Source of the DNA: Megasphaera stantonii
Lineage (GTDB): Bacteria; Bacillota; Negativicutes; Veillonellales; Megasphaeraceae
Direction: 5' to 3'
Assembly: GCF_003367905.1 (NCBI RefSeq)
Contig: NZ_CP029462.1
Location: forward strand, 1,488,001-1,552,000
DNA length: 64,000 nt
In this document: piece by piece, positions 38,781 through 53,800 of the stretch
Layout: each line of letters begins with the position of its first letter
How positions within the stretch are numbered: position 1 is the first letter of the stretch
Notes under the pieces: generated by a model
Database searches by the model: none
Seen by the model: only the letters and a program-made list of their open reading frames with translations
Told to the model about the DNA's origin: nothing
Made by a program: the position numbers and the translations under genes

Positions 38781-39141
38781 GTTATCGGCGAAAATCCGTT
38801 TGGAAATCGCCGCCATACGGCGAAATACAGGGAGAATTACCAAGAATATACCGGCGTATACGGCGCAGGGATGTTCCGCCCCGTCGGCGTCATTATGCCG
38901 ATTTCCTTGACCATACCCGCTGCGACACATCGGAACCGTTACGCGTAACGTCTTATCTTTTCTTTTTTATTTTTACTTTCTTTTTTTGTATACAGCTATC
39001 AATACATAGAACGAAGCGTGTTTTTACAGCGGACAGGTATGCTGAATCTGCATGATTGAAGGGGAAATAAATGCTCCCTTCCCTGTCCCATATACAGTAG
39101 CGAGCAAAGACGGCCCCAGGGCGGGCGGAAAGGAGCAGCCC
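38781..39141. other. 361-base leader region with polypyrimidine tract
   Basis: No convincing ORF. From about 38948 to 38985 the plus strand is nearly all pyrimidine, followed by the bipartite motif 39063-39100 and the ribosome site of the replisome-organizer gene. A comparable pyrimidine stretch (about 50403-50440) precedes the second copy of the motif. Confidence 0.5.
39063..39100 (+). promoter_or_regulatory. Bipartite upstream motif, copy 1
   Basis: GGAAATAAAT (39063-39072), 11 bases, TGTCCCATATACAGTAG (39084-39100). The same two blocks with the same 11-base spacing occur at 50464-50501. Likely a promoter or activator site serving both loci. Confidence 0.6.
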
Positions 39142-40260
39142 ATGAAGAAGCTGCGGTGGTTTCAGACAAAGGTCGGGTTGTTTCAGGACCCGCGCATGAT
39201 GTATCTGTTGAGTCAACCCAGCGGCGACTCCTACTTCGTCATCTGGTTTTACCTGAAGGACCTGGCCGGCATGGTCAACGACGACGGATATATCTACGTA
39301 GCCAAGGGGCAGGCCGTGACGACGGCCTTGCTGGCTCGTCAGCTGCACCGCCGCCGGGCCTTTGTGGAAAAAGTCCTCGACGTGTTCGAGCAAATCGACC
39401 TCATCAGCCGCGACGAGACGGGCCTGATCCGCATCGTGCCATGGCATGAAATCCAGAGCTTTGACCGGGACGAGAAAAAACGCCGCGACGCCCGCGACCG
39501 CATGCGCCGCTACCGCCGTCGCAAGGCCGAAGGCGGTGAGGTGCGCTGCCATACGTCCGAAGCTCCGGCCGGAAGGGGCACAGCGGCGGAAGAATCTGTC
39601 TATGACCAGCACTGCGGCAGCGAAGACTATGCCCGGCCTTCGGCGCAGGCTGCCCCGGCGGGATACGTCTGCTCGGACGAGACGGCGGCAGAGGAAACGG
39701 TATCGGTCTGCCCAGTCGGCGGGCTCGTTCCCGTACGGGAAGAGGCTGGCCGTATGGCGTCCTCTTATGGCGACGGCGAAGCCCCTGCCGTATGGGACGA
39801 CGCAGCTCCGACGGCAGCTCCTTGGCAGGACGAAGAACGCCCTGGCCTGCAGGATACGTGCGCCCACATAGCCGAGCCCGGCGGCAACAGCGGCATCGCG
39901 CCCGTATGGACTACGGCAGCCCAAAGAGGCTGCGGCGATCCGGCGAAGGCCCCGTCCCCTTCGGCAGGACGAGGCGCCTTGCGCTGCTATACGGCGGCCT
40001 TCGGCCAGATGAGCAGCCGCACGGCAGAGGAGCTGACCGACTTGGCCCGCTGCTGGGGCGACGAAGCGGTCTGCGCCGCCATAGACATTGCCAGGGACAA
40101 CGGCGCGTCCGGCATTCGCTACATCCGGGCCGTCCTGGTCAACAGCGGCGGACGGCCGCGGCGAAGGGAGACGATGTATGAACGACGGGAGAAGGAATTT
40201 AATCAATACGTTGATACAATGCTTCGGCAAATCTGGGAATCCGACGGGGATGGCTGCTAG
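39142..40260 (+). CDS. Phage-type replisome organizer with DnaD-like C-terminus
   Basis: 372 residues from ATG 39142 (AAAGGAG upstream). The N-terminal winged helix (1-110) has the phage replisome-organizer signature: 'FQTKVGLFQDPRMMYLL', 'GDSYFVIWFYLKDLAGMVNDDGYIYV' (in part) and 'VLDVFEQIDLIS'. A low-complexity linker follows (about 125-300). Residues 305-360 ('ELTDLARCWGDEAVCAAIDIARDNGASGIRYI', in part) match the DnaD C-terminal domain. In phages such proteins load the replicative helicase at the origin. No phage structural genes are nearby. Confidence 0.82.
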   Translation: MKKLRWFQTKVGLFQDPRMMYLLSQPSGDSYFVIWFYLKDLAGMVNDDGYIYVAKGQAVTTALLARQLHRRRAFVEKVLDVFEQIDLISRDETGLIRIVPWHEIQSFDRDEKKRRDARDRMRRYRRRKAEGGEVRCHTSEAPAGRGTAAEESVYDQHCGSEDYARPSAQAAPAGYVCSDETAAEETVSVCPVGGLVPVREEAGRMASSYGDGEAPAVWDDAAPTAAPWQDEERPGLQDTCAHIAEPGGNSGIAPVWTTAAQRGCGDPAKAPSPSAGRGALRCYTAAFGQMSSRTAEELTDLARCWGDEAVCAAIDIARDNGASGIRYIRAVLVNSGGRPRRRETMYERREKEFNQYVDTMLRQIWESDGDGC

Positions 40261-40786
40261 AATGCGCATCCTGAAGGACATGCTGCCGCCCATGACGGAG
40301 GATCAGGCCCGCGCCCTGGCGCGGCGCATACTGGAGGCACACCGCTTTGAGCCGTCCATTGCCGACGTACTCGCTCATTGGCGGGATATGGAACGCCGCC
40401 GCCGGCAGCAGGAAGGGGCAATCTATCTGGACGAGACACCGCCGCGGATTTCCCACGCCGAGAGGAAACGCCGCGCCGGCGAGCTGCGCCGCGTCCGGAC
40501 GGCCCTCGGCCAGCGCCGCTCCGTGCCGGGTCTCGTCGTATCGGAGGGCCTGACGGCCTTTGCCCGGTCCTTTTTTCCCCACATGAGCGAGGAGCTCATC
40601 GAACGCAACAAAATGGAAATCGCCAACTGCCGGGCCGACCGGGAGCGGGAAGACCGCTGCGCCAGCCCCTACGTCACGATGATGGAGCTCGATGAGACGG
40701 GCTGCGTGACCCTGTACATGGCGAAGCGACCCAGAGAGGAGGATGCCCATGCAGAAGATCCTGCGCTTTTTGAGGTCTGTCGATAA
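40178..40786 (+). CDS. Possible helicase loader/inhibitor (G39P-like)
   Basis: 202 residues from ATG 40178 (AAGGGAG upstream), starting 83 bases inside the replisome-organizer gene in another frame. Residues 20-65 ('MLPPMTEDQARALARRILEAHRFEPSIADVLAHW', in part) have the helical pattern of phage loader/inhibitors that bind the replicative helicase. The rest is arginine-rich. The position right after a replisome organizer supports the idea; the similarity is weak. Confidence 0.55.
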   Translation: MNDGRRNLINTLIQCFGKSGNPTGMAARMRILKDMLPPMTEDQARALARRILEAHRFEPSIADVLAHWRDMERRRRQQEGAIYLDETPPRISHAERKRRAGELRRVRTALGQRRSVPGLVVSEGLTAFARSFFPHMSEELIERNKMEIANCRADREREDRCASPYVTMMELDETGCVTLYMAKRPREEDAHAEDPALFEVCR

Positions 40787-40940
40787 ACGGACCGTCGTCT
40801 TTATCATCCGCATACTGTATTTTCTGATTAGGAGGAACTATACCGATGAAAGTCTATCTCAATCCAGGCCACGACCGCCTGCTGGACAGCGGGGCGGTCA
40901 ACGCCGCCCTGAACCTGCGCGAATGCGACCTGGCCTATGA
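40749..40940 (+). CDS. Doubtful small ORF between loader and amidase
   Basis: 63 residues from ATG 40749, with GAGGAGG 6 bases upstream. The first 30 residues hold a basic stretch and one hydrophobic segment ('TVVFIIRILYFLI'); the rest overlaps the amidase gene out of frame and looks like shadow sequence. Possibly a short membrane peptide with an accidental tail. Confidence 0.25.
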   Translation: MQKILRFLRSVDKRTVVFIIRILYFLIRRNYTDESLSQSRPRPPAGQRGGQRRPEPARMRPGL

Positions 40941-41382
40941 ACTGGCCGAGGCTGTCCAGGCTTATTTGGAGCGAAACGGCGTCGCCGTCGTCCTAGGGCA
41001 GTCCGACGATTTGTACGCTGTTTGCGGACAAGCCAACGCCGCCGAAGCGGACGTATTCGTGTCCCTTCATTTCAACGCCTTCAATAAGCGGGCTACAGGC
41101 ACGGAAACCCTCATTTCCAATACGCCCCAAAGCCTGCTCCTGGGACACTGCATCCAGGCCAACGTCAAGGCCGTCCTCAACCTGCCCGACAGGGGGCTGA
41201 AAGAGCGGCCAGGCCTCTTCGTCCTGCGCAACACGGCCATGCCCGCCGTCGTGGTAGAAGTCTGCTTCATCGACAATGACTACGACATGCGCTGCTACGA
41301 GGCCCATAAGGACGAAACCGCCAGGGCCATTGCCGCAGGCATCATACAATATCCGGCCATGCGCGGCCAGGCCGCGGCGTAA
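40846..41382 (+). CDS. N-acetylmuramoyl-L-alanine amidase (Amidase_3)
   Basis: 178 residues, start by TAGGAGG. The zinc amidase fold without signal peptide or cell-wall repeats: 'YLNPGHD', 'LRECDLAYELAEAV' (zinc Glu), 'FVSLHFNAFN' (zinc His) and 'VVEVCFIDNDYDM' with the catalytic Glu. It cuts the bond between N-acetylmuramate and the stem peptide. A signal-less, single-domain amidase is typical of phage lysins or spore/competence-type lysins, and agrees with the phage-like neighbours. I saw no holin next to it. Confidence 0.9.
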   Translation: MKVYLNPGHDRLLDSGAVNAALNLRECDLAYELAEAVQAYLERNGVAVVLGQSDDLYAVCGQANAAEADVFVSLHFNAFNKRATGTETLISNTPQSLLLGHCIQANVKAVLNLPDRGLKERPGLFVLRNTAMPAVVVEVCFIDNDYDMRCYEAHKDETARAIAAGIIQYPAMRGQAAA

Positions 41383-41422
41383 GGAACCGTTATAACCATA
41401 AAGCGCCCCTTCCTATCGGTAC

Positions 41423-41448
41423 GTGCCGACTGGAAACGGGCACTTTTT
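41423..41448 (+). terminator. Intrinsic terminator after the amidase
   Basis: GTGCC, 11-base loop, GGCAC, TTTTT. Confidence 0.65.
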
Positions 41449-41552
41449 GCGTTGTTTATATCATGCTGCATCTTCATCAAAAACGATTGGCTGCGACATT
41501 GTATTTTGCAGCGATATTTTTTATACTAAGGATAAGAAAGGAGGGCTTAGAC

Positions 41553-41828
41553 ATGATGTATCCCTATATGACGCTGAACGACGGTACGGAAATTACGCAT
41601 TCTCAACTGTTGGATCTGCAGCATGATGGCACGATAACCGTAGAAGTGCATTTTGAGCGGACTACGGATACGGGATTTGACAGCGCTAGATGTTTTCTTC
41701 CCAGCTATACCTGGCTGTATCATGAAGGGTTCAGCGCGGAAGAAATAAAGCGATTTGAACAATTTTTGAAGCGCAATGTCCATCTTTTCTTTAAATTTGC
41801 CGGTCAAGGAGGCATTTTCTGTGCCTAG
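41553..41828 (+). CDS. Uncharacterised 91-residue protein
   Basis: ATG 41553 with AAAGGAGGG 9 bases upstream, chosen over an earlier in-frame ATG at 41463. No family recognised. The sequence is mixed alpha/beta ('YMTLNDGTEITHSQLL', 'GTITVEVHFERTTDTG') with an aromatic C-terminus. It precedes the first Rpn nuclease by 150 bases and a terminator-like hairpin, so linkage is uncertain; an accessory of the Rpn locus is possible. Confidence 0.6.
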   Translation: MMYPYMTLNDGTEITHSQLLDLQHDGTITVEVHFERTTDTGFDSARCFLPSYTWLYHEGFSAEEIKRFEQFLKRNVHLFFKFAGQGGIFCA

Positions 41829-41926
41829 TTTATTTAAAATTGGCGAATATATTAACAAGACGGGTTGGAGATCCTTTTCCGGCCCGTTTTGCGCAGGCGT
41901 TCTGCATTTTTGGTATAGGTCGTTTG

Positions 41927-41956
41927 TTGCCAAGGCGTATGTATGTTTGGTATAAT
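41927..41956 (+). promoter_or_regulatory. Promoter of Rpn nuclease 1
   Basis: TTGCCA, 18-base spacer, TATAAT (41951-41956). The same layout and flanking sequence precede Rpn nuclease 2, showing that the duplication included the promoter. Confidence 0.6.
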
Positions 41957-41978
41957 CCAAGTAGAAGGAGGCGAGGCC

Positions 41979-42812
41979 GTGAAGCGAATTAAGGACTGGG
42001 AAGAGCTGACCATACAAGACAACTTTTTATTTCAAAAGGTCATGCGCAACAAGCGCCTGTGCCAGCATTTAATTGAGAAGATTCTGCAGATTAAGATCGC
42101 CGACATTACTTATCCCGATACGGAAAAGACCATCGACATCCGGCTGGACAGAAAAAGCGTGCGCCTGGACGTCTATGTCAAGGACGATACGGGGCGGGTA
42201 TTCGATATTGAAATGCAGTGTACTGACGAAAAGGACAACGGCCTGGCCAAGCGGACGCGGTACTATCAGGCCATGATCGATATGGACGTCCTGGAAAAGG
42301 GCGACGATTATAGTATGCTGAACCCGGCGTATATCATCTTTATCTGCACCTTTGACGCCTTTGACCGGGGCCTGCCGATGTACACCTTTAGAAATCGCTG
42401 CGTAGAGCAGGATGGCATAGAGCTGAACGACGAGGCGACGAAAATATTTCTGAACAGCAAAGGCGACAGCGAGGCCCTCGACCCGGACGTGCGGGCGTTT
42501 TTGCGGTACGTCGACGGCAAGGCGGCCGAAGGGGTATTTGTACAAGAAGTAGATAAGGAAGTACGGCGCGTGAAGCAGCACGATGAAACGAGGCGAGAAT
42601 ATATGACGTTGGCAATGGAATTAAAGCGGCAGCGGCAGGAAGGTATTGCAGAAGGCCTTGCAGAAGGTATTGCAGAAGGCAGTGCAAACGAAAAGAAGAA
42701 AATAATAGTAACTATGCTGCAAAAGGGGCTATCTGTAGAATTTATTGCGGACTGTGTGCAGACGTCGGCAGAGTATATTATTGAATTGGGTAAAAAACAA
42801 CATTTGTTATAA
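41979..42812 (+). CDS. Rpn family PD-(D/E)XK nuclease 1
   Basis: 277 residues from GTG 41979 (GGAGGCGAGG upstream). The N-terminal nuclease core (formerly transposase_31) has 'IQDNFLFQKVM', D64 in 'VRLDVYVKD' and E78-x-Q80 in 'VFDIEMQ'. After 'AFLRYVDGKAAEG' comes the separable C-terminal part: an internal ATG at residue 209 ('MTLAMELKRQRQ'), a repeat 'EGIAEGLAEGIAEG' and a helical end. Rpn proteins are toxic nucleases linked to recombination and anti-phage defence, and published E. coli work reports that an internally started C-terminal product acts as antitoxin. Confidence 0.88.
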   Translation: MKRIKDWEELTIQDNFLFQKVMRNKRLCQHLIEKILQIKIADITYPDTEKTIDIRLDRKSVRLDVYVKDDTGRVFDIEMQCTDEKDNGLAKRTRYYQAMIDMDVLEKGDDYSMLNPAYIIFICTFDAFDRGLPMYTFRNRCVEQDGIELNDEATKIFLNSKGDSEALDPDVRAFLRYVDGKAAEGVFVQEVDKEVRRVKQHDETRREYMTLAMELKRQRQEGIAEGLAEGIAEGSANEKKKIIVTMLQKGLSVEFIADCVQTSAEYIIELGKKQHLL

Positions 42813-42817
42813 CAGAG

Positions 42818-42850
42818 AGGCTGCTTGTGAAGGCAAGCAGCCTGTTTTTT
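42818..42850 (+). terminator. Intrinsic terminator after Rpn nuclease 1
   Basis: AGGCTGCTTG and CAAGCAGCCT around a 6-base loop, then GTTTTTT. Confidence 0.85.
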
Positions 42851-43231
42851 ATGCGGGCTTCTAGGCAGAAGAAAAAGGATGCAATGTCTTTTGGTACGAT
42901 ACGGTAATGGGGTGGAATGGTTTTAAGGAAATGTAATAAACATCGGGTCTCGTCATTTATTTTAGGGGTGGCTTTAAACCATATAGTGTATTTTTATCCA
43001 TTAGACATTAAACACTTCGTTTCGCCTGAATGGAAGTTTTTTACATTGCACAACGAGCTGCAATCGAAAAACGGCCTGATTTACAGGTATTGCATACTAT
43101 AGGGTATAAAGATGTGACGATAATATTTTAATATAGATTTAACGATTTATTCATAATTATTGGATTAGGGGATATTGCATTTGCCGATATAACATGCTAG
43201 ACTAAAAAGTATATAGAAGGGGGTGAAACAG
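42851..43231. other. 381-base AT-rich gap
   Basis: Holds a possible 61-residue ORF (42917-43102) with weak start signals and no recognisable sequence. A GGGGGTG ribosome site at its right end serves the leader ORF at 43232. Confidence 0.5.
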
Positions 43232-43315
43232 ATGATCTCTAGCCGAAACGATTGGAATGGCATCGCAGGAGCGGACAAATTCCTGAAATTCCATACGGGG
43301 GGGGGGGTACCGTAG
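43232..43315 (+). CDS. Short leader ORF interrupted after an 11-G tract
   Basis: ATG 43232 has GGGGGTG 6 bases upstream. In the present sequence it encodes 27 residues and ends at TAG 43313-43315 just after the G tract (43297-43307). Losing one G (or gaining two) would join it to the frame that runs on to TGA 43536-43538, making about 101 residues and an ATGA overlap with the zinc-ribbon gene. A homopolymer sequencing error could produce the same picture. Confidence 0.4.
   Translation: MISSRNDWNGIAGADKFLKFHTGGGVP
43297..43307 (+). repeat. Homopolymer of 11 G
   Basis: Uninterrupted G(11) inside a short ORF with a good ribosome site; a candidate slipped-strand switch. A small inverted repeat (GTAGT.GTAT / ATAC.TAC) follows immediately. 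Confidence 0.9.
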
Positions 43316-43534
43316 TGGTATAAATACTACCTCCTATACATGCTTTGGCGTATCGATGACCCGGCTTGGGGAATTCGTGCGTTCTTTTTCAGCGCCGTCC
43401 TTTGGGGGGTTCGTATACTCTGGCGATACCATGTTTTTCAGGCAGCATAGGTGTATGCTGTCTTTTTTGCGTGCCCGGAACTGCTTCGCCCGGCGCGCGC
43501 TCCGTGTGCTTGCTAGAGAATCCATAGGTTGCCT

Positions 43535-43963
43535 ATGAAACGGAAAGCCATATGTCCCGTTTGCGGCAAAGAATTTGAAGCGGACCGAATCACGCAGAAA
43601 TACTGCAGCAATTACTGCCGGCGCTACGCCCACCGGCACGGCGTAAACGATCACGGCCGGTCGTCGCGGAAAAAGGAAGCCCTGCGGACCTTTCACTGCC
43701 TGAAATGCGGCAAGCTGGTGCGGGTGACCGAGGCGACGGACTGGCGGACAAAATTCTGCTCGGCCCATTGCGAGCGGCTGTACTGGAAGCACTCGGAAAA
43801 AGTCAAATCCCAGACTATACGCCACGCCTTTCACTGCCGAAACTGCGGAACTTATGTGGAAATCACCGATCCCTACGACCGGCGAATCGCCTTTTGCAGC
43901 ACCGCCTGCCGCCTGCGCTGGTTTTCCCTGCATCGAAGCAAAAAAGAACGCGTATTACCATAG
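43535..43963 (+). CDS. Cysteine-rich protein with three zinc-ribbon repeats
   Basis: 142 residues from ATG 43535 (TTG 43529 is an alternative). Three copies of CxxC-x(12-16)-CxxxC: 'CPVCGKEF..YCSNYC', 'CLKCGKLV..FCSAHC' and 'CRNCGTYV..FCSTAC', spaced about 45 residues apart and joined by basic linkers. It should bind three zinc ions and perhaps nucleic acid. It has only a weak ribosome site of its own, and sits 16 bases before the adhesin gene, so it may affect adhesin expression. Function not recognised. Confidence 0.75.
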   Translation: MKRKAICPVCGKEFEADRITQKYCSNYCRRYAHRHGVNDHGRSSRKKEALRTFHCLKCGKLVRVTEATDWRTKFCSAHCERLYWKHSEKVKSQTIRHAFHCRNCGTYVEITDPYDRRIAFCSTACRLRWFSLHRSKKERVLP

Positions 43964-43979
43964 CAAGGAGGAAATAGGT

Positions 43980-46900
43980 ATGAATCGAATATACAAAGTT
44001 ATATGGAGTAAAGTAAAACATCAATACGTCGTCGTATCCGAACTGGCTCATAGCTGCACGAAGAGCACGAGCAGCCGCGTTGGCCGGAGCGCCGCCGCCG
44101 TATTGGCCGCCCTGGTGCTGACGACGGGCCTCTGCGCCGCGCCCGTACAGGCCGAAGACCTGACGGACCCCTACGCCCTGCTCAACGCCCAGGTAGAAGA
44201 AACGAACAGCACCTCTTCGGATACGCTGGTCACGCTCGTACAGAGCCCCTTGGTAAAGAGCGTTGCGCCCTTGGCAAATGAAGACGAAGGGCAGCCCGGC
44301 GAAGGCGGCAGTTCTACCGTCACGACGCCGGATGGACAGCATACGATCTATAACGAAGAAGGCTTTTATGCCCATAACGGTCAGGGTACGTATAATTCCC
44401 TAACCAAAGACGGCCTGTTTGTTGGGGGTACGGATAACGGCGAAGGGCTGTATGTTGATAACGACGGTAATATCTATACTGATGGAAATGCGGAAATTGA
44501 AGGCTCCTTTTCTGCAGCCGACGGCAATGCAACGATTGCCGCAGATGGTACGACAGTAATTCGGGCCGGCGGCTCTCAGCTCGTTGTCAATGACGGAGCC
44601 GCTGGTATTACTCATGGCAATGCCATTATGGCCGTCAGCAGCAATAAAGCGGAAATGCAGGGGGGCGGCAGCTCTGTGATAGCCGATTTAAACGGCGTTA
44701 CCTTGACAGAACGGACGGGAAATACGACTGTAACGGTTAATCAAGACGGCATGACTGTTGACGGCGACTTTGCCGTAACCGGCAATACGAATTTAAAACA
44801 TACCAATGTTGACGGTGATCTGAACGTATCGGGCAGCACGCATGTTGACGGCGGCTTGACAGCAGGAAATTTACAGACAAAAGGCCAGTTGCATGCAGGA
44901 AGCGCTGTTATTGACGGGAGCGCAACCGTTGGCGGAAAACTCACGGCAGGCGATGTAAAAACGAATACAGTTGATGCGCATAACGTATCTGTCGACAATG
45001 AACTGACGGCCGGAAAAGCGACTATTGACGGCAAGCTGACAGCAGGAAGTGCAGAGATTACGAACAGCGCGACTGTCGGCGGTACTCTGACAGCAGGAGA
45101 TATCGAGACGGAAGGAACCGTCAAAGCAACGAATGCTGATATTACGAATCTGGAAGCTGGCAAAGCGACCGTTGAAGGTAAGCTGACAGCCGGAAGTGCA
45201 GACATTACCGGGGATGCAGTCGTTGGCGGTTCGTTAACAGCGGGCAGCCTTTCTACGGAAGGCAAGCTGACGGCAGGCAGCGCAGCGATTAATGGCAATG
45301 CTGACATTACCGGTACGGCGACAGTCGGCGGCTTGACGACGGAAGGCAAAGTCACGGCAAACAATGCGGAAATTACTAATTTGAAGGCTGGCAAGGCCGA
45401 TGTTGAAGGAATTGTAAGAGGCGGCAGCTTTGCGAATACGAACGATAGCTTTACTGTCGATGACCAAGGAGACGTTAAAGCTCATAATGTAACGCTTACC
45501 GGCACGCTGGGAGTAGCTGGCGCGACAACCCTTGACAGCACGCTGAGCGTTACAGGAGAAACAACTCTGACTGGCGCGTTGACAGCTAACGGCACGGCAA
45601 CATTTGCCAAAGGCGCGTCTATGGGCGGTCAGAAGATCACCAATGTAGGAGATGGAGAAGTTAGCGCGACTTCAAAAGATGCAGTAAACGGCAGCCAGTT
45701 ACAGAAAGTAGCCGATACGGTTAAGACCTATCAGGCCGGAGATGGTATTGCCATAGCTAACGGCGCTACGCAGACGCCGACTATATCGGCTAAAGCAGCT
45801 GACGGCGGAAACATCGTCGTAAACGCTGATGGCATCAGCTTAGCGAAAGACGTGAGCGGCCTGACGAGCCTCGGCACTGATGCGCTGACAGTGAATAATA
45901 ATGCAACAATCGGAGGTACCTTAGGCGTTACAGGAGAAACAACTCTGACTGGCGCGTTGAAGGCTAATGGCACGGCAACGTTTGCACAAGGCGCGTCTAT
46001 GGGCGGTCAGAAGATCACCAATGTAGGAGATGGAGAAGTTAGCGCGACTTCAAAAGATGCAGTAAACGGCAGCCAGTTACAGAAAGTAGCCGATACGGTT
46101 AAGACCTATCAGGCCGGAGATGGTATTGCCATAGCTAACGGCGCTACGCAGACGCCGACTATATCGGCTAAAGCAGCTGACGGCGGAAACATCGTCGTAA
46201 ACGCTGATGGCATCAGCTTAGCGAAAGACGTGAGCGGCCTGACGAGCCTCGGCACTGATGCGCTGACAGTGAATAATAATGCAACAATCGGAGGTACCTT
46301 AGGCGTTACAGGAGAAACAACTCTGACTGGCGCGTTGACAGCTAACGGCACGGCAACATTTGCCAAAGGCGCGTCTATGGGCGGTCAGAAGATCACCAAT
46401 GTAGGAGATGGAGAAGTTAGCGCGACTTCAAAAGATGCAGTAAACGGCAGCCAGTTACAGAAAGTAGCCGATACGGTTAAGACCTATCAGGCCGGAGATG
46501 GTATTGCCATAGCTAACGGCGCTACGCAGACGCCGACTATATCGGCTAAAGCAGCTGACGGCGGAAACATCGTCGTAAACGCTGATGGCATCAGCTTAGC
46601 GAAAGACGTGAGCGGCCTGACGAGCCTCGGCACTAATGCGCTGACAGTGAATAATAATGCAACAATCGGAGGTACCTTAGGCGTTACAGGAGAAACAACT
46701 CTGACTGGCGCGTTGACAGCTAACGGCACGGCAACATTTGCCAAAGGCGCGTCTATGGGCGGTCAGAAGATCACCAATGTAGGAGATGGAGAAGTTAGCG
46801 CGACTTCAAAAGATGCAGTAAACGGCAGCCAGTTACAGAAAGTAGCCGATACGGTTAAGACCTATCAGGCCGGAGATGGTATTGCCATAGCTAACGGCGC

Positions 46901-49900
46901 TACGCAGACGCCGACTATATCGGCTAAAGCAGCTGACGGCGGAAACATCGTCGTAAACGCTGATGGCATCAGCCTGTCGAAGACGGTCAGCGGATTGACG
47001 AGCATCGGCACGGAAACCATTACGGCTAACGGAGCAGCCAAGGTTGGCAGTCTTACGACAACAGGGGCTATCAGTGGCGGTAGCGTAACGGCAGGAACAG
47101 GACTGTTTTCTACTTCCGTGACGATTGGAAATACTGCGAGCGGTCTTAAACTTGCCGACGGAGAAATTACCGGATTAGCTACGAGCAAGATTGATGCTAG
47201 TACGGATGCCGTTAACGTAGAGTATTTGCAAGACTATGTGAGCAAAAATGGTACAGGAAAGACTTATACGGCAGGAAATGGTATAGTTATTGACGGTTCG
47301 AACGTCGTATCGGTGAAGAACGGCAACGGTATAGGATTTGACGCCAGCGGCAAGGTAGAAGTGAAAGCGGCACAGGATGGAAACATCGTTGTCGGTACTG
47401 ACGGAGTCAGCCTGTCGAAGACAGTCAGCGGATTGACGAGTCTCAGCACCGATGCGTTGGCAGTGACCAATAATGCAACCGTACGCGGCACGTTAGGCGT
47501 TACGGGAGGTATCAGCGGCGGCAGCGTGACTGCTGAAACAGGACTGTTTTCTACGTCTGTGACGATTGGAAATGCTACGAGTGGCCTTAAACTTGCTGAT
47601 GGGGAAATTACAGGATTAGTTACAAGTAAAATTGACAGTAATACAGATGCCGTCAACGTAGAATATTTAGAAGACTACGTGAGCCAAAACGGTACGGGCA
47701 AGACCTATACGGCCGGAAACGGCATCGCTATTGATAACAATAAGATTTCCGTAAAAACGGCGGCAGATGGCAATCTGGAAGTGGACAGCAACGGCGTCGC
47801 GCTAAAAGACGCCATCAGCCTGACAAGTGTGACGACGAGAGGCGCAGTAACCGTTGGCGGTACTCTGGGAGTCACAGGAGCGACGAACCTCAACAGTACG
47901 CTGAACGTAACGGGAGCAACGACGTTAGGAGCGCTGACGACGAACGGCACGGCGACTTTCAGCCAGGGAGCTTCGATGAATGGTCAGAAGATTACCCGCG
48001 TACAGGCTGGCACAGAAGGTACTGATGCAGTTAACAGGAGTCAGCTCGACGCAGTAGAAGGAAAGATTAAGACGTATACGGCTGGCGACGGCATTGATAT
48101 TACGTCTGATAAAATCTCCGTTAAATCTGCAGATAATAATATCGTAGTCGACGGAACGGGCGTATCCTTAGCAGACGACATCAGCGTGACGAGCGTTGCG
48201 ACGACGGGAGCGGCCAATGTAGGCGGTAATTTGAGCGTCGCAGGCACGACGACATTGACTGGCGCGACGACCATTAACAGCACTCTCGGCGTAACGGGAG
48301 CGGTAACGGCGGCAAGTGTGACGGCTGCCGGAGGCTTTACGATTAATGACTCTAACTCCTTGACACTCAGCGGCCTGACGATCGGCGGCACGCAGTATAT
48401 TACTTCTGCCGGTTTGAATGCTGGAAACAAGGTCATTACTGATGTAAAAGCCGGCGTAGATGACAACGATGCTGTCAACGTGAGCCAGCTTAAGGAAGTC
48501 AAAGAAGTGTCTGATTTGGCTGTTACATATACGCCTAATACCAACAAGAGTCAGGTTTATTTGCAGGGAACGAATGGAACGACTATTATGAATGTTGCGG
48601 CTGGAAATATTAGTAGTGCAGATTCTAAAGATGCTGTCAATGGCGGACAGTTGTATGCTACGAATCAGATTGTCGGTGATGGCGATTACTCGTCTAATAA
48701 TTTCTTGACAGATAGCATGAATTTAACGCAAGCTGCCAGCGCATTGGATAAGGCTATTGGCGCTAATCGGTATACTGATGGAAACATTTTAGATGTCAAT
48801 TCAGACGGGAAAACCTACACTAGCATAACCGCAGCCGTCGATACGTTGAATAGAAGTATTGGAAGTCTGACTATGACCTCGCCTGCAGCGTACTTCTCAG
48901 AAAATAGTACGTTACCTTCTGTAACATTTGGCCTGAATGAGTTAAGCAAAGCCATTGGTCCTCTGGATTTTGACGGCAGAAACTTTATCAGTAATGATGG
49001 CAATTTGTCGTCTGCCCTGGTGCAGTTAGATTCTCAAATTGGCTTGTCCTTAGAAAGCATCGGGTTCCGAAAGGATTCTACTGGCCATATTACGACATCA
49101 ATTGATTGGACGGGCTTCAACTATGCAGGAAAAACAGTTGTCGATACGCTGAAAAATTTAGATAAAAATGTGTATAATTTGGATCATCGCGTAGGCGTAT
49201 TGGAAAATGAACACGGTATCAGTTCTAATGCTATATCGGCTCTTTCCACCTTCTCCACGTCCAACATCAGCACCCTCAGTGCTCTCAGCAACATGGATAT
49301 GAGCGCAGTCAATACGCTTTCATCGTTGAGTGCTGACGACCTTGCGGCGATTTCTACGCTGTCCGAAGACGGCAGCGTTCCGGCAGCCAACAGCGATCCG
49401 AACAGCAGACCGGGCAGAGGGCCGAGCAGCGGTTCGGAAGATTCTTCGACCCACGACGGAAACACGCAGGTGATGGATCACAACTTGGCTGTAACGGGTA
49501 ATGTCAGCGTCGGCGGCACGCTGGATGTGACGGGCAAGGCTACTTTCGGCAGCGACGTCAGCGTCGGCGGCAACCTGGACGTTCAGGGCGAAACAAACAT
49601 GCACGGCACCCTCAACATGAACGACAACAAGATCACCGGCGTCACGGCAGGCGATATTTCCGCCGATTCGACGGACGCTGTTAACGGCAGCCAGCTCCAT
49701 GACGCATGGCAGCAGATCAACAGCAATACGGAAAACATCGGCATCCTCGGCAGCGCAGTCAACAAGCTGGGCGACCGCATTGAACGGGTCGGCGCAGGGG
49801 CAGCGGCGTTGGCAGCCTTGCATCCGCTGGATTTCGATCCGGACAACAAGCTGGACTTCGCGGCGGGCTTTGGTAACTACCGCGGCGCGAGCGCAGTCGC

Positions 49901-50096
49901 TGTAGGCGCTTTCTATCGGCCCAGTGAAAACGTCATGTTCAGCGTCGGCGGCGCATTCGGCGGCGGCGAAGACATGGTGAACGCCGGCGTATCCTTCAAG
50001 GTAGGCGCAGGCTCGGGCAGCGCGACGACGTCGCGGACGGCCATGGCCAAGTCGCTGAAATCCATGCAGGAAGTCGTGGCTTCCCAGGACGCCTAG
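43980..50096 (+). CDS. Giant YadA-like trimeric autotransporter adhesin
   Basis: 2038 residues from ATG 43980 (AAGGAGG upstream). Extended signal peptide (1-58, 'MNRIYKVIWSKVKHQYVVVS' then a hydrophobic core), a passenger of beta-roll repeats ('GKLTAGSADITGDAVVGG', 290-520), four 126-residue repeats (523-1000), further head/neck modules each with a 'SKDAVNGSQL'-type neck, a Ser/Leu-rich segment (about 1755-1810), a Ser/Pro linker, and the YadA anchor (about 1940-2010, 'GAFYRPSENVMFSVGGAFGGG'). Trimers display the stalk outside the cell for adhesion. The frame ends at TAG 50094-50096 where coding sequence clearly continues, so the normal tail is lost or read through. Confidence 0.93.
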   Translation: MNRIYKVIWSKVKHQYVVVSELAHSCTKSTSSRVGRSAAAVLAALVLTTGLCAAPVQAEDLTDPYALLNAQVEETNSTSSDTLVTLVQSPLVKSVAPLANEDEGQPGEGGSSTVTTPDGQHTIYNEEGFYAHNGQGTYNSLTKDGLFVGGTDNGEGLYVDNDGNIYTDGNAEIEGSFSAADGNATIAADGTTVIRAGGSQLVVNDGAAGITHGNAIMAVSSNKAEMQGGGSSVIADLNGVTLTERTGNTTVTVNQDGMTVDGDFAVTGNTNLKHTNVDGDLNVSGSTHVDGGLTAGNLQTKGQLHAGSAVIDGSATVGGKLTAGDVKTNTVDAHNVSVDNELTAGKATIDGKLTAGSAEITNSATVGGTLTAGDIETEGTVKATNADITNLEAGKATVEGKLTAGSADITGDAVVGGSLTAGSLSTEGKLTAGSAAINGNADITGTATVGGLTTEGKVTANNAEITNLKAGKADVEGIVRGGSFANTNDSFTVDDQGDVKAHNVTLTGTLGVAGATTLDSTLSVTGETTLTGALTANGTATFAKGASMGGQKITNVGDGEVSATSKDAVNGSQLQKVADTVKTYQAGDGIAIANGATQTPTISAKAADGGNIVVNADGISLAKDVSGLTSLGTDALTVNNNATIGGTLGVTGETTLTGALKANGTATFAQGASMGGQKITNVGDGEVSATSKDAVNGSQLQKVADTVKTYQAGDGIAIANGATQTPTISAKAADGGNIVVNADGISLAKDVSGLTSLGTDALTVNNNATIGGTLGVTGETTLTGALTANGTATFAKGASMGGQKITNVGDGEVSATSKDAVNGSQLQKVADTVKTYQAGDGIAIANGATQTPTISAKAADGGNIVVNADGISLAKDVSGLTSLGTNALTVNNNATIGGTLGVTGETTLTGALTANGTATFAKGASMGGQKITNVGDGEVSATSKDAVNGSQLQKVADTVKTYQAGDGIAIANGATQTPTISAKAADGGNIVVNADGISLSKTVSGLTSIGTETITANGAAKVGSLTTTGAISGGSVTAGTGLFSTSVTIGNTASGLKLADGEITGLATSKIDASTDAVNVEYLQDYVSKNGTGKTYTAGNGIVIDGSNVVSVKNGNGIGFDASGKVEVKAAQDGNIVVGTDGVSLSKTVSGLTSLSTDALAVTNNATVRGTLGVTGGISGGSVTAETGLFSTSVTIGNATSGLKLADGEITGLVTSKIDSNTDAVNVEYLEDYVSQNGTGKTYTAGNGIAIDNNKISVKTAADGNLEVDSNGVALKDAISLTSVTTRGAVTVGGTLGVTGATNLNSTLNVTGATTLGALTTNGTATFSQGASMNGQKITRVQAGTEGTDAVNRSQLDAVEGKIKTYTAGDGIDITSDKISVKSADNNIVVDGTGVSLADDISVTSVATTGAANVGGNLSVAGTTTLTGATTINSTLGVTGAVTAASVTAAGGFTINDSNSLTLSGLTIGGTQYITSAGLNAGNKVITDVKAGVDDNDAVNVSQLKEVKEVSDLAVTYTPNTNKSQVYLQGTNGTTIMNVAAGNISSADSKDAVNGGQLYATNQIVGDGDYSSNNFLTDSMNLTQAASALDKAIGANRYTDGNILDVNSDGKTYTSITAAVDTLNRSIGSLTMTSPAAYFSENSTLPSVTFGLNELSKAIGPLDFDGRNFISNDGNLSSALVQLDSQIGLSLESIGFRKDSTGHITTSIDWTGFNYAGKTVVDTLKNLDKNVYNLDHRVGVLENEHGISSNAISALSTFSTSNISTLSALSNMDMSAVNTLSSLSADDLAAISTLSEDGSVPAANSDPNSRPGRGPSSGSEDSSTHDGNTQVMDHNLAVTGNVSVGGTLDVTGKATFGSDVSVGGNLDVQGETNMHGTLNMNDNKITGVTAGDISADSTDAVNGSQLHDAWQQINSNTENIGILGSAVNKLGDRIERVGAGAAALAALHPLDFDPDNKLDFAAGFGNYRGASAVAVGAFYRPSENVMFSVGGAFGGGEDMVNAGVSFKVGAGSGSATTSRTAMAKSLKSMQEVVASQDA
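45547..46975 (+). repeat. Four tandem 378-bp repeats in the adhesin
   Basis: The block starting at about 45547 recurs at 45925, 46303 and 46681 (the last one about 295 bases long). The copies differ at only a few bases. Each encodes 126 residues, including one 'SKDAVNGSQL' neck. Identity at the DNA level shows recent expansion or gene conversion, so copy number may vary between cells. Confidence 0.92.
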
Positions 50097-50216
50097 CTGG
50101 CGCAGCAGCGCGAACAGATCGACAAGCTGACGGCGATGGTCGAGCTCCTGATGGAACAAAACGGCCAGGCGCAGCCGAAGGACGGCGACGCCCAGGCAGC
50201 GCAGCCGCAGCAGTAA
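50097..50216 (+). other. Adhesin coiled-coil tail after the in-frame TAG
   Basis: The adhesin frame continues for 39 codons to TAA 50214-50216: 'LAQQREQIDKLTAMVELLMEQ', a heptad coiled coil, then a Gln/Ala/Pro end. The TAG replaces what would be CAG ('SQDAQLAQQ'). The decayed adhesin at 60857 has a similar coiled tail after its barrel, so this tail is a normal part of the protein. Confidence 0.85.
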
Positions 50217-50262
50217 GATTTTTTGGGCAGCCGCGACAGGCTGACCGAAGGCAAGAGAATAC

Positions 50263-50296
50263 GGGTCGGGGGATGTCCTCCGGCCCGTTTTTTCTG
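50263..50296 (+). terminator. Intrinsic terminator of the adhesin gene
   Basis: ACGGGtCGGgGGA and TCCtCCGgCCCGT, then six T. It lies after the TAA, not after the TAG. Confidence 0.85.
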
Positions 50297-50463
50297 GGCA
50301 AAAATACTTTTTGAAATATAAAAAGTTCAGAAAATATAAGGAATATACCTGTATAGTATTTAATCTTTTCGATATCCTGGCCTTTGTTTTGTATGTATGC
50401 TAAGAATTTCCTTCTGTTTCTTTCTATTTCTTTTCGGATTTTTGCAGAAATTCAGATTTTTAA

Positions 50464-50501
50464 GGAAATAAATATATTTCTTGATGTCCCATATACAGTA
50501 G
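50464..50501 (+). promoter_or_regulatory. Bipartite upstream motif, copy 2
   Basis: GGAAATAAAT (50464-50473), 11 bases, TGTCCCATATACAGTAG (50485-50501), identical in both blocks and spacing to copy 1 and placed 76 bases before the DUF1659 start. Confidence 0.6.
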
Positions 50502-50576: not shown

Positions 50577-50792
50577 ATGGCAGAACGTACGCCTGTTTCC
50601 AGCAAGCTGAAGCTGACCGTGTCGTATCAGGACGGCAGCGGCGCGCAGAAGACCCGTCAGGTCACGTTGGCTCATTTGAAATCCGGCGCAGAGCCGGCCA
50701 ATATCGTCGACGTCGTGACGGCTCTCGGCACGCTGCAGGACGACCCGTTTACGGCGATCCGCGAAGTGGTGGAACACGAGATTTCGGCCTAA
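50577..50792 (+). CDS. DUF1659 family protein
   Basis: 71 residues from ATG 50577 (AAAGGAGGAAGG upstream). Beta-strand protein with 'KLKLTVSYQDGSGAQKTRQVTLAHLKSGA' (in part). The family is short, of unknown function, and in Firmicutes occurs with DUF2922 and often with a sigma factor or amidase, as seen here. Confidence 0.88.
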   Translation: MAERTPVSSKLKLTVSYQDGSGAQKTRQVTLAHLKSGAEPANIVDVVTALGTLQDDPFTAIREVVEHEISA

Positions 50793-50827
50793 GGGCCCGA
50801 CTATACTAGGGAAAGGAGGTACCGGCT

Positions 50828-51055
50828 ATGGCTGTGACGAAAACGAGAACGCTCCAGCTCGAATTTCTCGACGGGGGCGGCAACAGCGTCGTCTACTCCC
50901 TGAAGGACCCGAAAGAGGGCCTGGACAAGGCGACGGTCGAAGCGGCGGCCCAGACGATCGTCGAGAAGAAGGTCTTCGCGACGGCTGACGGCGACCTGGC
51001 GTCGCTGAAGCAGGGCCAGATCGTGACCCGCAGCGTCGAGACGATCGACGAGTAA
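50828..51055 (+). CDS. DUF2922 family protein
   Basis: 75 residues, AAAGGAGG upstream. 'LQLEFLDGGGNSVVYSLKDPKEGLDKATVEAA' (in part) matches the DUF2922 pattern. Paired with DUF1659, function unknown. A GC-rich hairpin (51067-51113) separates it from the sigma gene; no YvrJ-type peptide was found between them. Confidence 0.88.
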   Translation: MAVTKTRTLQLEFLDGGGNSVVYSLKDPKEGLDKATVEAAAQTIVEKKVFATADGDLASLKQGQIVTRSVETIDE

Positions 51056-51142
51056 AAAAACGCGCCGGGCGGCATGTCTCGGGCCCAAGGCCTGAGGCCG
51101 CCTGCCGGCGCATATTATGTGAATAGATTGGAGGAGTTCGAA

Positions 51143-51739
51143 ATGACCGAAGCGCTGCGGCCTTGGATTCGCGAGGCCCAGAACGGCAGCACCGAGGCTG
51201 TCGAATTTATTTTAGAGCAGTTTCACCCCCTCATCTGCAAGCATTCGCGGAAGAACCGCCATCACTACGACTCGATGGACGAGGCCCGCTCGACGGCCCA
51301 TTTGGCGATTATCGACTGCATCCACGCCTTTGACCTGAACAGCGATGAGGACGCGTCGCGGGCTTTCAACCGCACGATTCAGAGCTGGTTTCGCCGGGAA
51401 AGCCGCCAGAACCAGGTGTACTGGGCGAGGGTGGAGAAGAATATTGCCGGTGAGGACGAGGCCACGGATTTGCCGCCTATTATCGACGAGCTGGCGCCGG
51501 ACCCGCATCACTACATGGACTTCGTCGGCTTGCGGGACGCCCTGGAGCTGCACCTGAGCCGCCTCAGCGAACGGGAACGGCGGTTTTTGCATCTGCGCTA
51601 CGCCGCCGATATGACGCTGGCAGCCATCGCCGCCCTGCACGGCTTGTCGGCCTCGCAGGTCTGCAAGGTCATCAAGGGGGCGGAACATAAATTAAAATCG
51701 GCCATGACGGCCCAGGAATACAAGGATATTTCGCCATGA
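51143..51739 (+). CDS. Sigma-70 family alternative sigma factor
   Basis: 198 residues from ATG 51143 (GGAGGAG upstream). Region 2-like part at 1-95 ('LEQFHPLICKHSRKNRHHYDSMDEARSTAHLAIIDCIHAF', in part, for -10 recognition) and region 4 helix-turn-helix at about 140-185 ('LSERERRFLHLRYAADMTLAAIAALHGLSASQVCKVIKGAE', in part). It resembles the small phage/competence-like sigma factors more than extracytoplasmic-function ones. No anti-sigma gene follows. It may read the bipartite motif upstream of its own locus. Confidence 0.82.
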   Translation: MTEALRPWIREAQNGSTEAVEFILEQFHPLICKHSRKNRHHYDSMDEARSTAHLAIIDCIHAFDLNSDEDASRAFNRTIQSWFRRESRQNQVYWARVEKNIAGEDEATDLPPIIDELAPDPHHYMDFVGLRDALELHLSRLSERERRFLHLRYAADMTLAAIAALHGLSASQVCKVIKGAEHKLKSAMTAQEYKDISP

Positions 51740-51870
51740 CAGCTGTGCCGGATGATGCGGACTCGTGCGTCCGGCATCAGTGCGAACGTGGCGAAGACGG
51801 GGGAGCTGAGAGGCTCTTTTTTTTGTGCCTGGAACAGGGGGGAGGTGCCGTTTTTGGCATAGGTCATTTG

Positions 51871-51900
51871 TTGCCGAATCGTACATATGTTTAGTATACT
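51871..51900 (+). promoter_or_regulatory. Promoter of Rpn nuclease 2
   Basis: TTGCCG, 18 bases, TATACT, homologous to the promoter of Rpn nuclease 1. Confidence 0.55.
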
Positions 51901-51922
51901 ATAAGTAGAAGGCGGCGAGGCC

Positions 51923-52756
51923 GTGAAGCGAATCAAGGACTGGGAAGAACTGACGATACAGGACAATTTCCTGTTTTTAAAGGTCATGCAGAATAAAAGG
52001 CTGTGCCAACATCTGATTGAGAAAATACTGCAAATCAAGATCGTCGAGATTACCTACCCTGACACGGAAAAGAGCATCGACGTCCGCTGGGACAGCAAGA
52101 GCGTTCGCCTCGACGTATACGTCAAGGACGAAACGGGCCGGGTCTACGACATCGAAATGCAGTGCGAAAACGAAGCGAACAACGGCCTGGCCAAACGGAC
52201 GCGGTATTATCAGGGAATGATCGACATGGAGCTCTTGAATAAAGGCGACGTATATGATAACTTAAAGCCATCGTATATTATATTTATTTGTACCTTCGAC
52301 GCCTTTGCCAAGGGCCGGCCCATGTATACCTTTCGGAACCGCTGCGTAGAAGAAGAGGGCCTGGAGCTGAACGACGAGGCGACGAAGATATTCCTGAACA
52401 GCAAAGGCGACAGCGAGGCCTTGGACCCGGATATACGGGCGTTCCTGCGGTACGTCGATGGAAAAGCGGCGGAGGGGGCCTTTGTGCAGGCCTTGGATAC
52501 GGAAGTGAAAGCTATCAAGCAGCATAAAGAAACGAGGCGAGAATATATGACGTTGGCGATGGAGTTAAAGAGACAAAGACAATTCGGCCGAGAAGAGGGC
52601 CGAGAAGAGGGGCGAGAAGAAGGGCGGAAAGAAGAACGGTTAAAAATGATACTAGCGATGCTGCAAGATGGCGTTGCTAAAGAAACGATAGCAAAGTATG
52701 CGAAGGTTTCAGTAGATTATATTACAGAATTAGGGAAAAAGAATCATTTACTATAA
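51923..52756 (+). CDS. Rpn family PD-(D/E)XK nuclease 2
   Basis: 277 residues from GTG 51923. Paralogue of the 41979 gene, with the same nuclease residues (D64, E78-x-Q80) and the same internal ATG at residue 209 preceded by GAGG. The variable C-terminus has 'REEGREEGREEGR' in place of the glycine/alanine repeat. The gene is followed by orphan copies of its own C-terminal segment (52793-53800). Confidence 0.88.
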   Translation: MKRIKDWEELTIQDNFLFLKVMQNKRLCQHLIEKILQIKIVEITYPDTEKSIDVRWDSKSVRLDVYVKDETGRVYDIEMQCENEANNGLAKRTRYYQGMIDMELLNKGDVYDNLKPSYIIFICTFDAFAKGRPMYTFRNRCVEEEGLELNDEATKIFLNSKGDSEALDPDIRAFLRYVDGKAAEGAFVQALDTEVKAIKQHKETRREYMTLAMELKRQRQFGREEGREEGREEGRKEERLKMILAMLQDGVAKETIAKYAKVSVDYITELGKKNHLL

Positions 52757-52792
52757 TTTGAACAAGGCGTCTGCAGGAGTAGGCGCCTTGTT

Positions 52793-53173
52793 TTGCAAGA
52801 TGAAGTTAGGGGGGCTGTGAAAGTGACAGCGAGGCGTTGGACCCGGATATACGGGCGTTCCTGCGGTACGTCGATGGAAAAGCGGCCGAAGGGGGCGTTT
52901 GTGCAGGCCTTGGATACGGAAGTGAAAGCTATCAAGCAGCATAAGGAAACGAGGCGAGAATATATGACGTTGGCGATGGAGTTAAAGAGACAAAGACAAT
53001 TCGGCCGAGAAGAAGGCCGAGAAGAGGGGCGAGAAGAAGGGCGGCAAGAAGAACGGTTAAAAATGATACTAGCGATGCTGCGGAAGGGATTTTCCGTAGA
53101 GAGCATTGCAGAATGTGCGCAAACCTCGGTAGAATATATCATGGAATTAGGAAAAAAGAATCATTTGTTGTAA
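52793..53173 (+). CDS. Orphan Rpn C-terminal cassette 1
   Basis: The open frame runs from TTG 52793, but similarity to nuclease 2 starts at about 52826 and an extra G near 52890 puts its first 20 codons out of frame. The sound part is the product from ATG 52964 (GAGG 9 bases upstream): 69 residues, the same length as the internal product of nuclease 2, nearly identical up to 'ERLKMILAML' and then different ('RKGFSVESIAECAQTSVEYI'). It could be a free antitoxin or a donor for recombination. Confidence 0.55.
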   Translation: MQDEVRGAVKVTARRWTRIYGRSCGTSMEKRPKGAFVQALDTEVKAIKQHKETRREYMTLAMELKRQRQFGREEGREEGREEGRQEERLKMILAMLRKGFSVESIAECAQTSVEYIMELGKKNHLL

Positions 53174-53216
53174 TCTGAGTAAGGCATTTGCGGAAGCGGG
53201 TGCCTTATTTCATGAG

Positions 53217-53564
53217 ATGGGATCTCGTTTTTGCAAAGACGGCAGGAGCTGCTGGCTCTCAGACGTGCAGGCGTTCCTGCGGTACGTCGATGGAAAAGCG
53301 GCCGAAGGGGCGTTTGTGCAGGCCTTGGATACGGAAGTGAAAGCTATCAAGCAGCATAAAGAAACGAGGCGAGAATATATGACGTTGGCGATGGAGTTAA
53401 AGAGAATGTTTGCCGAAGGCGAGAGAACGGGCGAGCAAAAGAAAGAGACAATGATGATATTAGAAATGCTGCGTGAAGGTATTTCTAAAGAGACTATTGC
53501 TAGATGTGCGCGTGTATCGGTTGAGTATGTAGTAGAATTAGGAAAAAGGAATCATTTGCTGTAA
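53217..53564 (+). CDS. Orphan Rpn C-terminal cassette 2
   Basis: 115 residues as drawn; homology covers 'AFLRYVDGKAAEGAFVQA' to the end in one frame. The internal ATG 53379 with GAGG is kept and would give 61 residues. The tail differs from the other copies from 'MFAEGERTGEQKKETMMI' onward. The DNA of the shared part is almost identical to nuclease 2, implying a recent duplication or conversion. Confidence 0.55.
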   Translation: MGSRFCKDGRSCWLSDVQAFLRYVDGKAAEGAFVQALDTEVKAIKQHKETRREYMTLAMELKRMFAEGERTGEQKKETMMILEMLREGISKETIARCARVSVEYVVELGKRNHLL

Positions 53565-53625
53565 TTTGGTCAAGGTGCCTGCGGGAGTAGACGCCTTATG
53601 TTGTAAGATAGAATTTCGTTTTTGC

Positions 53626-53800
53626 ACAGACGACAGCGAGGCGTTGGACCCGGATATACGGGCGTTCCTGCGGTACGTCGATGGAAAAGCGGCGGAAGGG
53701 GCGTTTGTGCAGGCCTTTTGTAAAAGCGACAGCGCGAAGGCTATGCAGGTGTTTTGCGGTACGTAGACGGCGAGGCGGCGCAGGAATTGAGAGCCGTCTC
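53626..53800 (+). pseudogene. Rpn C-terminal remnants 3 and 4
   Basis: 53626-53720 repeats the 'ALDPDIRAFLRYVDGKAAEGAFVQA' region (in part) and stops before the internal start; 53724-53800 is a more decayed copy ('LRYVDGEAAQEL', with a stop in frame). Neither can make a C-terminal domain. Confidence 0.6.

Follow-up and report, generated by a model that had tools for sequence, protein, structure and literature searches.

Sigma factors that have a promoter of their own are an established type of regulator. The TcdR-related group 5 (TcdR, BotR and UviA) is marked by SRQ in region 4.2 and by a −35 element TTTACA (PMC4031146). SigO–RsoA of Bacillus subtilis, a sigma system that resists easy classification, transcribes its own operon along with a few more (PMC8103513). 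Here we describe a bipartite element that occurs twice in a 64,000-nucleotide stretch of the Megasphaera stantonii genome (contig NZ_CP029462.1, positions 1,488,001 to 1,552,000; hereafter the window), once before the genes for a replisome organizer and an amidase and once before an operon that ends in a gene for a small sigma-70 family factor at 51143. From sequence comparison we propose, with a probability of roughly 0.62, that each copy is a promoter of a cassette-specific type that would be read by the cassette's own sigma factor, which would thereby be autoregulated.

The element, GGAAATAAAT-N11-TGTCCCATATACAGTAG, is present in exact copies at 39063-39100 (copy A) and 50464-50501 (copy B), both on the + strand, and the identity of blocks and spacing reported in an earlier note on this DNA is therefore exact. 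At up to three mismatches these are the only two matches in the window, a number reached in none of 100 dinucleotide shuffles (mean 0.00). The scan for the two blocks at 11-base spacing that the earlier note had called for returned the same two places in the whole genome (one contig of 2,652,760 bases) at the same threshold, not a scatter of sites, with zero matches for a reversed control pattern; 16 other genomes of the family also gave zero matches. The right block alone is found at nine places in the genome at up to three mismatches versus eight for its reversed control, so that only the two exact copies stand out. The 11-base spacers, GCTCCCTTCCC and ATATTTCTTGA, agree at one position and differ at the other ten, leaving the blocks and their distance as the only kept parts. 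As the sequence flanking the two copies is no more alike than shuffles (downstream 111/1000, upstream 115/500), the blocks are exact while all around them has drifted, a pattern typical of sites contacted by a protein. The start codon follows 41 bases past the end of copy A and 75 past that of copy B; AGGGG follows block 2 at copy B and in many relatives, and is absent at copy A. A pyrimidine-rich stretch does precede both copies, as had been noticed, but this detail is not conserved: in at least four related cassettes (L031, L034, L035 and L042) the tract at the corresponding upstream position consists mainly of purines when read on the cassette strand.

The genes behind the two copies belong together. 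Replisome organizer, amidase, DUF1659, DUF2922 and sigma region 4 each scored above the curated cut-off in profile searches, bearing out the assignments made earlier, except that the supposed 'loader', here orf2, had nothing over the curated cut-off in Pfam or NCBIfam and nothing in PHROGs at E 0.01. The full order replisome organizer-orf2-amidase-DUF1659-DUF2922-sigma is found on one strand at six related loci (L031, L034, L035, L040, L042, where the sigma gene reads in two pieces, and L043), and L031 is a second, unsplit cassette of the window's own genome. At L048 the set is present with orf2 not detected, the last four genes stand together at L038, L039, L041 and L047, and the last three at L044 and L046. 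Because relatives carry the six genes whole, the two window loci, previously taken for separate phage-like loci, are on this comparison the halves of one ancestral cassette, now 9.2 kb apart (amidase end 41382 to DUF1659 start 50577). Each half is followed by a PDDEXK_2 gene, and these two genes share 76% identity over 907 bases; a larger unit that was duplicated and then lost parts reciprocally is therefore no less possible than a split by insertion. The window amidase is 64-78% identical to those of six related cassettes. The genes beside the cassette are mostly unshared between species in the ten related loci compared, which indicates that it does not occupy one fixed place. YvrJ-type genes accompany DUF1659 and DUF2922 elsewhere.

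The cassette looks bacterial rather than phage-borne, since tblastn of the sigma factor and DUF2922 against 50,697 phage records gave zero matches, the bipartite motif occurs in none of the viral contigs, and DUF2922 is present in 51 of the 53 order genomes that are at least 90% complete. The replisome organizer is found in 109 phage records, with 29-32% identity over 29% of the protein in the eight listed, and amidase relatives in viral contigs reach 25-46% identity at most among the best 80 of 116 loci, with 25-40% for the individual identities listed. PHROGs profiles match the sigma factor (phage sigma families), the replisome organizer, the amidase and, weakly, DUF2922, and this phage kinship at profile level qualifies the bacterial reading.

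An equivalent element, with a common core near TATAnAGTAGAGGGG, is seen upstream of related cassettes. Fifteen sites in 13 loci, the window copies among them, were gathered by eye, and the 500 bases upstream of 17 gene heads were scanned with a matrix trained on the remaining sites, using 400 shuffles each; both window copies were held out at once, as were L083 and L087, and other Megasphaera sites were left ungrouped. The best match lies 49 to 62 bases before the replisome-organizer gene in 7/7 such cassettes outside the window, a constant place (shuffle p 0.18 for L031, 0.0075 for L034, 0.0025 for L035, 0.0025 for L040, 0.0075 for L042, 0.05 for L043 and 0.21 for L048). At L044, L046, L047, L083 and L087 the scan gave p ≤0.0075. 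Where p is weak, the matching position argues more strongly than the score does. The upstream block differs by clade: GTGAATAAAA in L044, L046 and L047, ATGAATAAAA in L043, GGAAATAAAT in the window and TTTTCAAAAA in L083 and L087. At sites where such a block can be recognised, its first base is 35 or 36 bases ahead of TAG; at the other sites it was positioned by this distance and provides no independent evidence there. The narrow GTGAATAAAA-type pattern is confined to two of 17 family genomes (G008 and G009). In the unsplit cassette of the window's genome the presumed promoter is a different one, with one site in the genome at up to three mismatches, as expected if every cassette has its own reader.

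The candidate reader is a single 198-residue protein. It matches Sigma70_r4 at 35.9 bits (cut-off 24.1) and spans positions 1-165 of the TIGR02937 model at 51.4 bits (cut-off 42.9). Its predicted structure has two helical domains (mean predicted local distance difference test score 87.3, predicted template modelling score 0.54), and its best Foldseek matches among solved structures are sigma factors, although a different placement of the domains keeps the template modelling scores, taken by query length, down to about 0.3-0.4. The three sigma factors paired with GTGAATAAAA have a common recognition-helix core, SQAKVSR(R/K)LH, and are 53-71% alike over 17 residues versus 38-50% overall. In a covariation test on 11 sigma-site pairs, one site per genome locus with L042 and L087 left out, region 4 correlated with the upstream block (r 0.41, p 0.005) and not clearly with the −10 part (r 0.10, p 0.22), and region 2 gave r 0.21 (p 0.09) with the −10 part. 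The sigma alignment omitted L042, on account of its gene in two pieces, and L045 (one of 30 listed proteins). A putative promoter of the cognate type precedes the sigma factor's own operon, namely copy B before DUF1659-DUF2922-sigma, with equivalents in relatives.

By comparison of these loci, block 1 would act as the −35 element and the CATATACAG part of block 2 as the −10 element, with the transcript starting near GTAG(AGGGG). The 51143 sigma factor would direct RNA polymerase to both copies: at copy B it would switch on its own gene together with DUF1659 and DUF2922, and at copy A the replisome organizer, orf2 and the amidase. The outcome would be a positive feedback loop whose regulon in this genome is the cassette itself. 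There would be two copies because a single ancestral cassette parted, leaving each half with a promoter. The regulon suggested in the earlier note thus largely survives: the element is promoter-like, has equivalents in relatives and is found in this genome only before the halves of the sigma-encoding cassette, although it would not join separate loci. As to what the cassette does, our guess is that it serves replication and wall lysis, is switched on conditionally and descends from something phage-like.

Several results weigh against this proposal. In the matrix scan copy B was recovered with a weak p of 0.08, copy A was not the best match of the blind scan (p 0.27), the values for L031 and L048 are weak, and the gene heads of L038, L039 and L041 showed no site (p 0.10, 0.13 and 0.40). 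In the covariation test the spacer, a control, also correlates with region 4 (r 0.25, p 0.04) and with the whole protein (r 0.38, p 0.01), and the test thus cannot part recognition from descent. The genome encodes three more sigma homologues, any of which could be the reader instead; one belongs to the second cassette, and the other two immediately follow autotransporter genes. Finally, the related sites of genomes G027-G030, with TTGCG and then a TRTAG core, look like housekeeping promoters by eye, which speaks against a special reader there.

The best-surviving alternative, unlikely though deserving attention, is that the copies are promoters for the housekeeping sigma factor, or for some other one, and overlap an operator, so that a repressor or activator, not the 51143 sigma factor, controls both halves. 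The core TATAnA resembles a −10 box, the other sigma homologues would supply readers, and GTAACG half-sites upstream of six cassettes hint at a further regulator. However, there is no housekeeping −35 element at the right distance, and the upstream block is exactly kept and clade-specific. A search for housekeeping-type promoters found none at copy A and, near copy B, one match that ends before block 2. Far less probable is that the copies are traces of a recent duplication, a mobile element or an attachment site, lacking regulatory meaning. The similar PDDEXK_2 genes behind the two halves would fit a duplicated larger unit, but the spacers differ at 10/11 positions, an equivalent element stands at the same place in relatives, and the flanks are no closer than shuffled sequence, on which ground recent duplication read from residual likeness around the copies was rejected; we regard this explanation as already disfavoured. 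That the blocks work in RNA as a leader element is scarcely credible, for although a start codon follows within 41 and 75 bases of the two copies, the Rfam search of the window found no family at the gathering score, and two short blocks at a fixed distance with a free spacer suit a promoter better.

The proposed autoregulated promoter has repeated counterparts, specific to single genomes, elsewhere. Genome G023 has six sites of its own version at up to three mismatches, two of them within a sigma-DUF2922-DUF1659 locus, and the same search gave one site in G022 and none in five further genomes of that family. Five of the six head a repeated element of about 330 bases without an evident gene, and the sixth heads DUF2922. 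The repeated element, found in 2/61 order genomes and without an Rfam match, lies in G023 at L120, L122, L123, L124 and L125, and its 3' part is also found alone. The version of G028 (TTGCG + GNAATRTAG) has two matches, one before an amidase gene with a leader open reading frame (ORF) and one before DUF1659. G027, G029 and G030 have one site each of the TTGCG version, and a second G027 site is one base wider.

More tentatively, and with the balance of our judgement still against it, these sites could belong to a distinct and so far undescribed class of sigma factors that is widespread in the order, each with its own fast-changing promoter code and running a small, conserved replication-and-lysis cassette with DUF1659 and DUF2922, to which in at least one genome (G023) five apparently non-coding ~330-base elements would be added. 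Promoter and sigma factor would change together, insulating the two cassettes of one genome from each other. Such joint change could naturally be studied on the repeated clade-specific promoters, and the cassette offers a first way into two families of small proteins that have no known function, DUF1659 and DUF2922.

Table 1. Features of the split cassette and its two promoter-like elements, numbered from the first letter of the window.
Feature	Positions	Strand	Basis
Copy A block 1, GGAAATAAAT, proposed −35 element	39063..39072	+	exact match
Copy A block 2, TGTCCCATATACAGTAG, proposed −10 element and start region	39084..39100	+	exact match
Replisome-organizer gene (PF09681), head of half A	39142..40260	+	E 1.9e-20
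orf2, earlier called 'loader', kept in related cassettes	40175..40786	+	no family above cut-off
N-acetylmuramoyl-L-alanine amidase gene (PF01520), endolysin-like	40846..41382	+	profile match over curated cut-off
Stretch parting the two halves: orf4, PDDEXK_2 gene, poly-G leader, zinc-finger-like ORF, YadA-type autotransporter	41383..50463	.	cassette whole in relatives
Copy B block 1, GGAAATAAAT, proposed −35 element	50464..50473	+	exact match
Copy B block 2, TGTCCCATATACAGTAG, then AGGGG as in relatives	50485..50501	+	exact match
DUF1659 gene (PF07872), head of half B	50577..50792	+	E 1.2e-14
DUF2922 gene (PF11148)	50828..51055	+	E 2.8e-21
Sigma-70 family factor, 198 residues, proposed reader of both copies	51143..51739	+	sigma-70 profile matches, predicted fold

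Upstream of copy A, the window carries the palindrome GTTACGCGTAAC at 38938-38949. GTAACG half-sites, mostly as the palindrome GTAACGCGTTAC, lie roughly 140-550 bases upstream of the replisome-organizer gene in six cassettes (window 38938-38949; L031 1977, L034 10874, L035 6025, L040 13072, L042 11764), where they adjoin a purine- or pyrimidine-rich tract. They may be an operator or an origin. Past the sigma gene, 51851-53766 holds a PDDEXK_2 gene and then similar but shorter stretches that look like partial, decaying duplicates.

The YadA-type trimeric autotransporter between the halves (43980-50096) has 2,038 residues. The trio DUF1659-DUF2922-sigma, or a lone sigma homologue (L032 and L033), is often close to trimeric autotransporter genes (window 50577-51739; L032, L033, L040, L041, L044, L046, L106 and L110). 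A link between the element and the autotransporter operons was considered, as the operon at L147 has a site like the right block (three mismatches) some 170 bases ahead of its zinc-finger ORF; it was judged to be chance because the left block is absent, the two other compared operons have no such site, and the reversed control gives such sites equally often.

Four operons of a zinc-finger ORF and an autotransporter in this genome have a common leader (window 43232-43539, L147 7692-7970, L148 5736-6007, and L232): a short ORF that contains a poly-G tract (11, 9, 11 and 11 G) is followed by a terminator-like hairpin with a T run and by the zinc-finger ORF. Each of the four has one tract phase out of three that carries the leader ORF through the hairpin to end over the next start codon, and at the assembled lengths all four leader ORFs stop early. 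The layout suggests attenuation that is phase-variable and involves translational coupling, much like the mechanism of pil1 in Streptococcus gallolyticus, which uses GCAGA repeats (PMC3894217). Codon-position differences do not clearly reveal coding constraint in the leader ORFs, and the hairpin pattern occurs in 1/17 family genomes, at these four places. At L031 6700-6735 (= L021 2643), eleven G stand between TTGACA and TATATT, perhaps as a phase-variable promoter spacer, upstream of a 1,206-residue autotransporter ORF (L031 6873-10493; Autotransporter beta-domain).

The earlier note knew of no description of such a system, and this stands for the cassette, of which we found no description in the open-licence literature, though not for the principle of a sigma factor with its own promoter. 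The same literature yielded nothing on a Megasphaera sigma factor together with a trimeric autotransporter; in it, DUF2922 was nowhere found and DUF1659 only in the context of domain frequencies. Among the six cassette genes no family match pointed to an anti-sigma gene, small ORFs nearby not being searched. With the extracytoplasmic function (ECF; group IV) sigma factors the window protein has the two-domain layout in common, and the sigma70-ECF superfamily model was matched over its cut-off. A typical ECF promoter reads GGAAC/CGTC, of which only the GGAA start agrees in the window element; a scan of the loci for an ECF-type promoter (GGAAC...CGTC) was set aside, as it returned the two known sites and otherwise scattered matches. 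As in the TcdR group (PMC4031146), we see a small sigma-70 factor near its presumed target genes and a promoter type repeated at few places; unlike it, the window helix LSASQVCKVIKGAEHKL (LSASQVCKV) has no SRQ, the block is GGAAATAAAT rather than TTTACA, and the genes are quite different. Compared with SigO–RsoA (PMC8103513), the factor is likewise hard to classify and its own operon is a proposed target, but there the sigma domains are divided between two proteins, whereas here they lie on one protein of 198 residues, with other gene neighbours.

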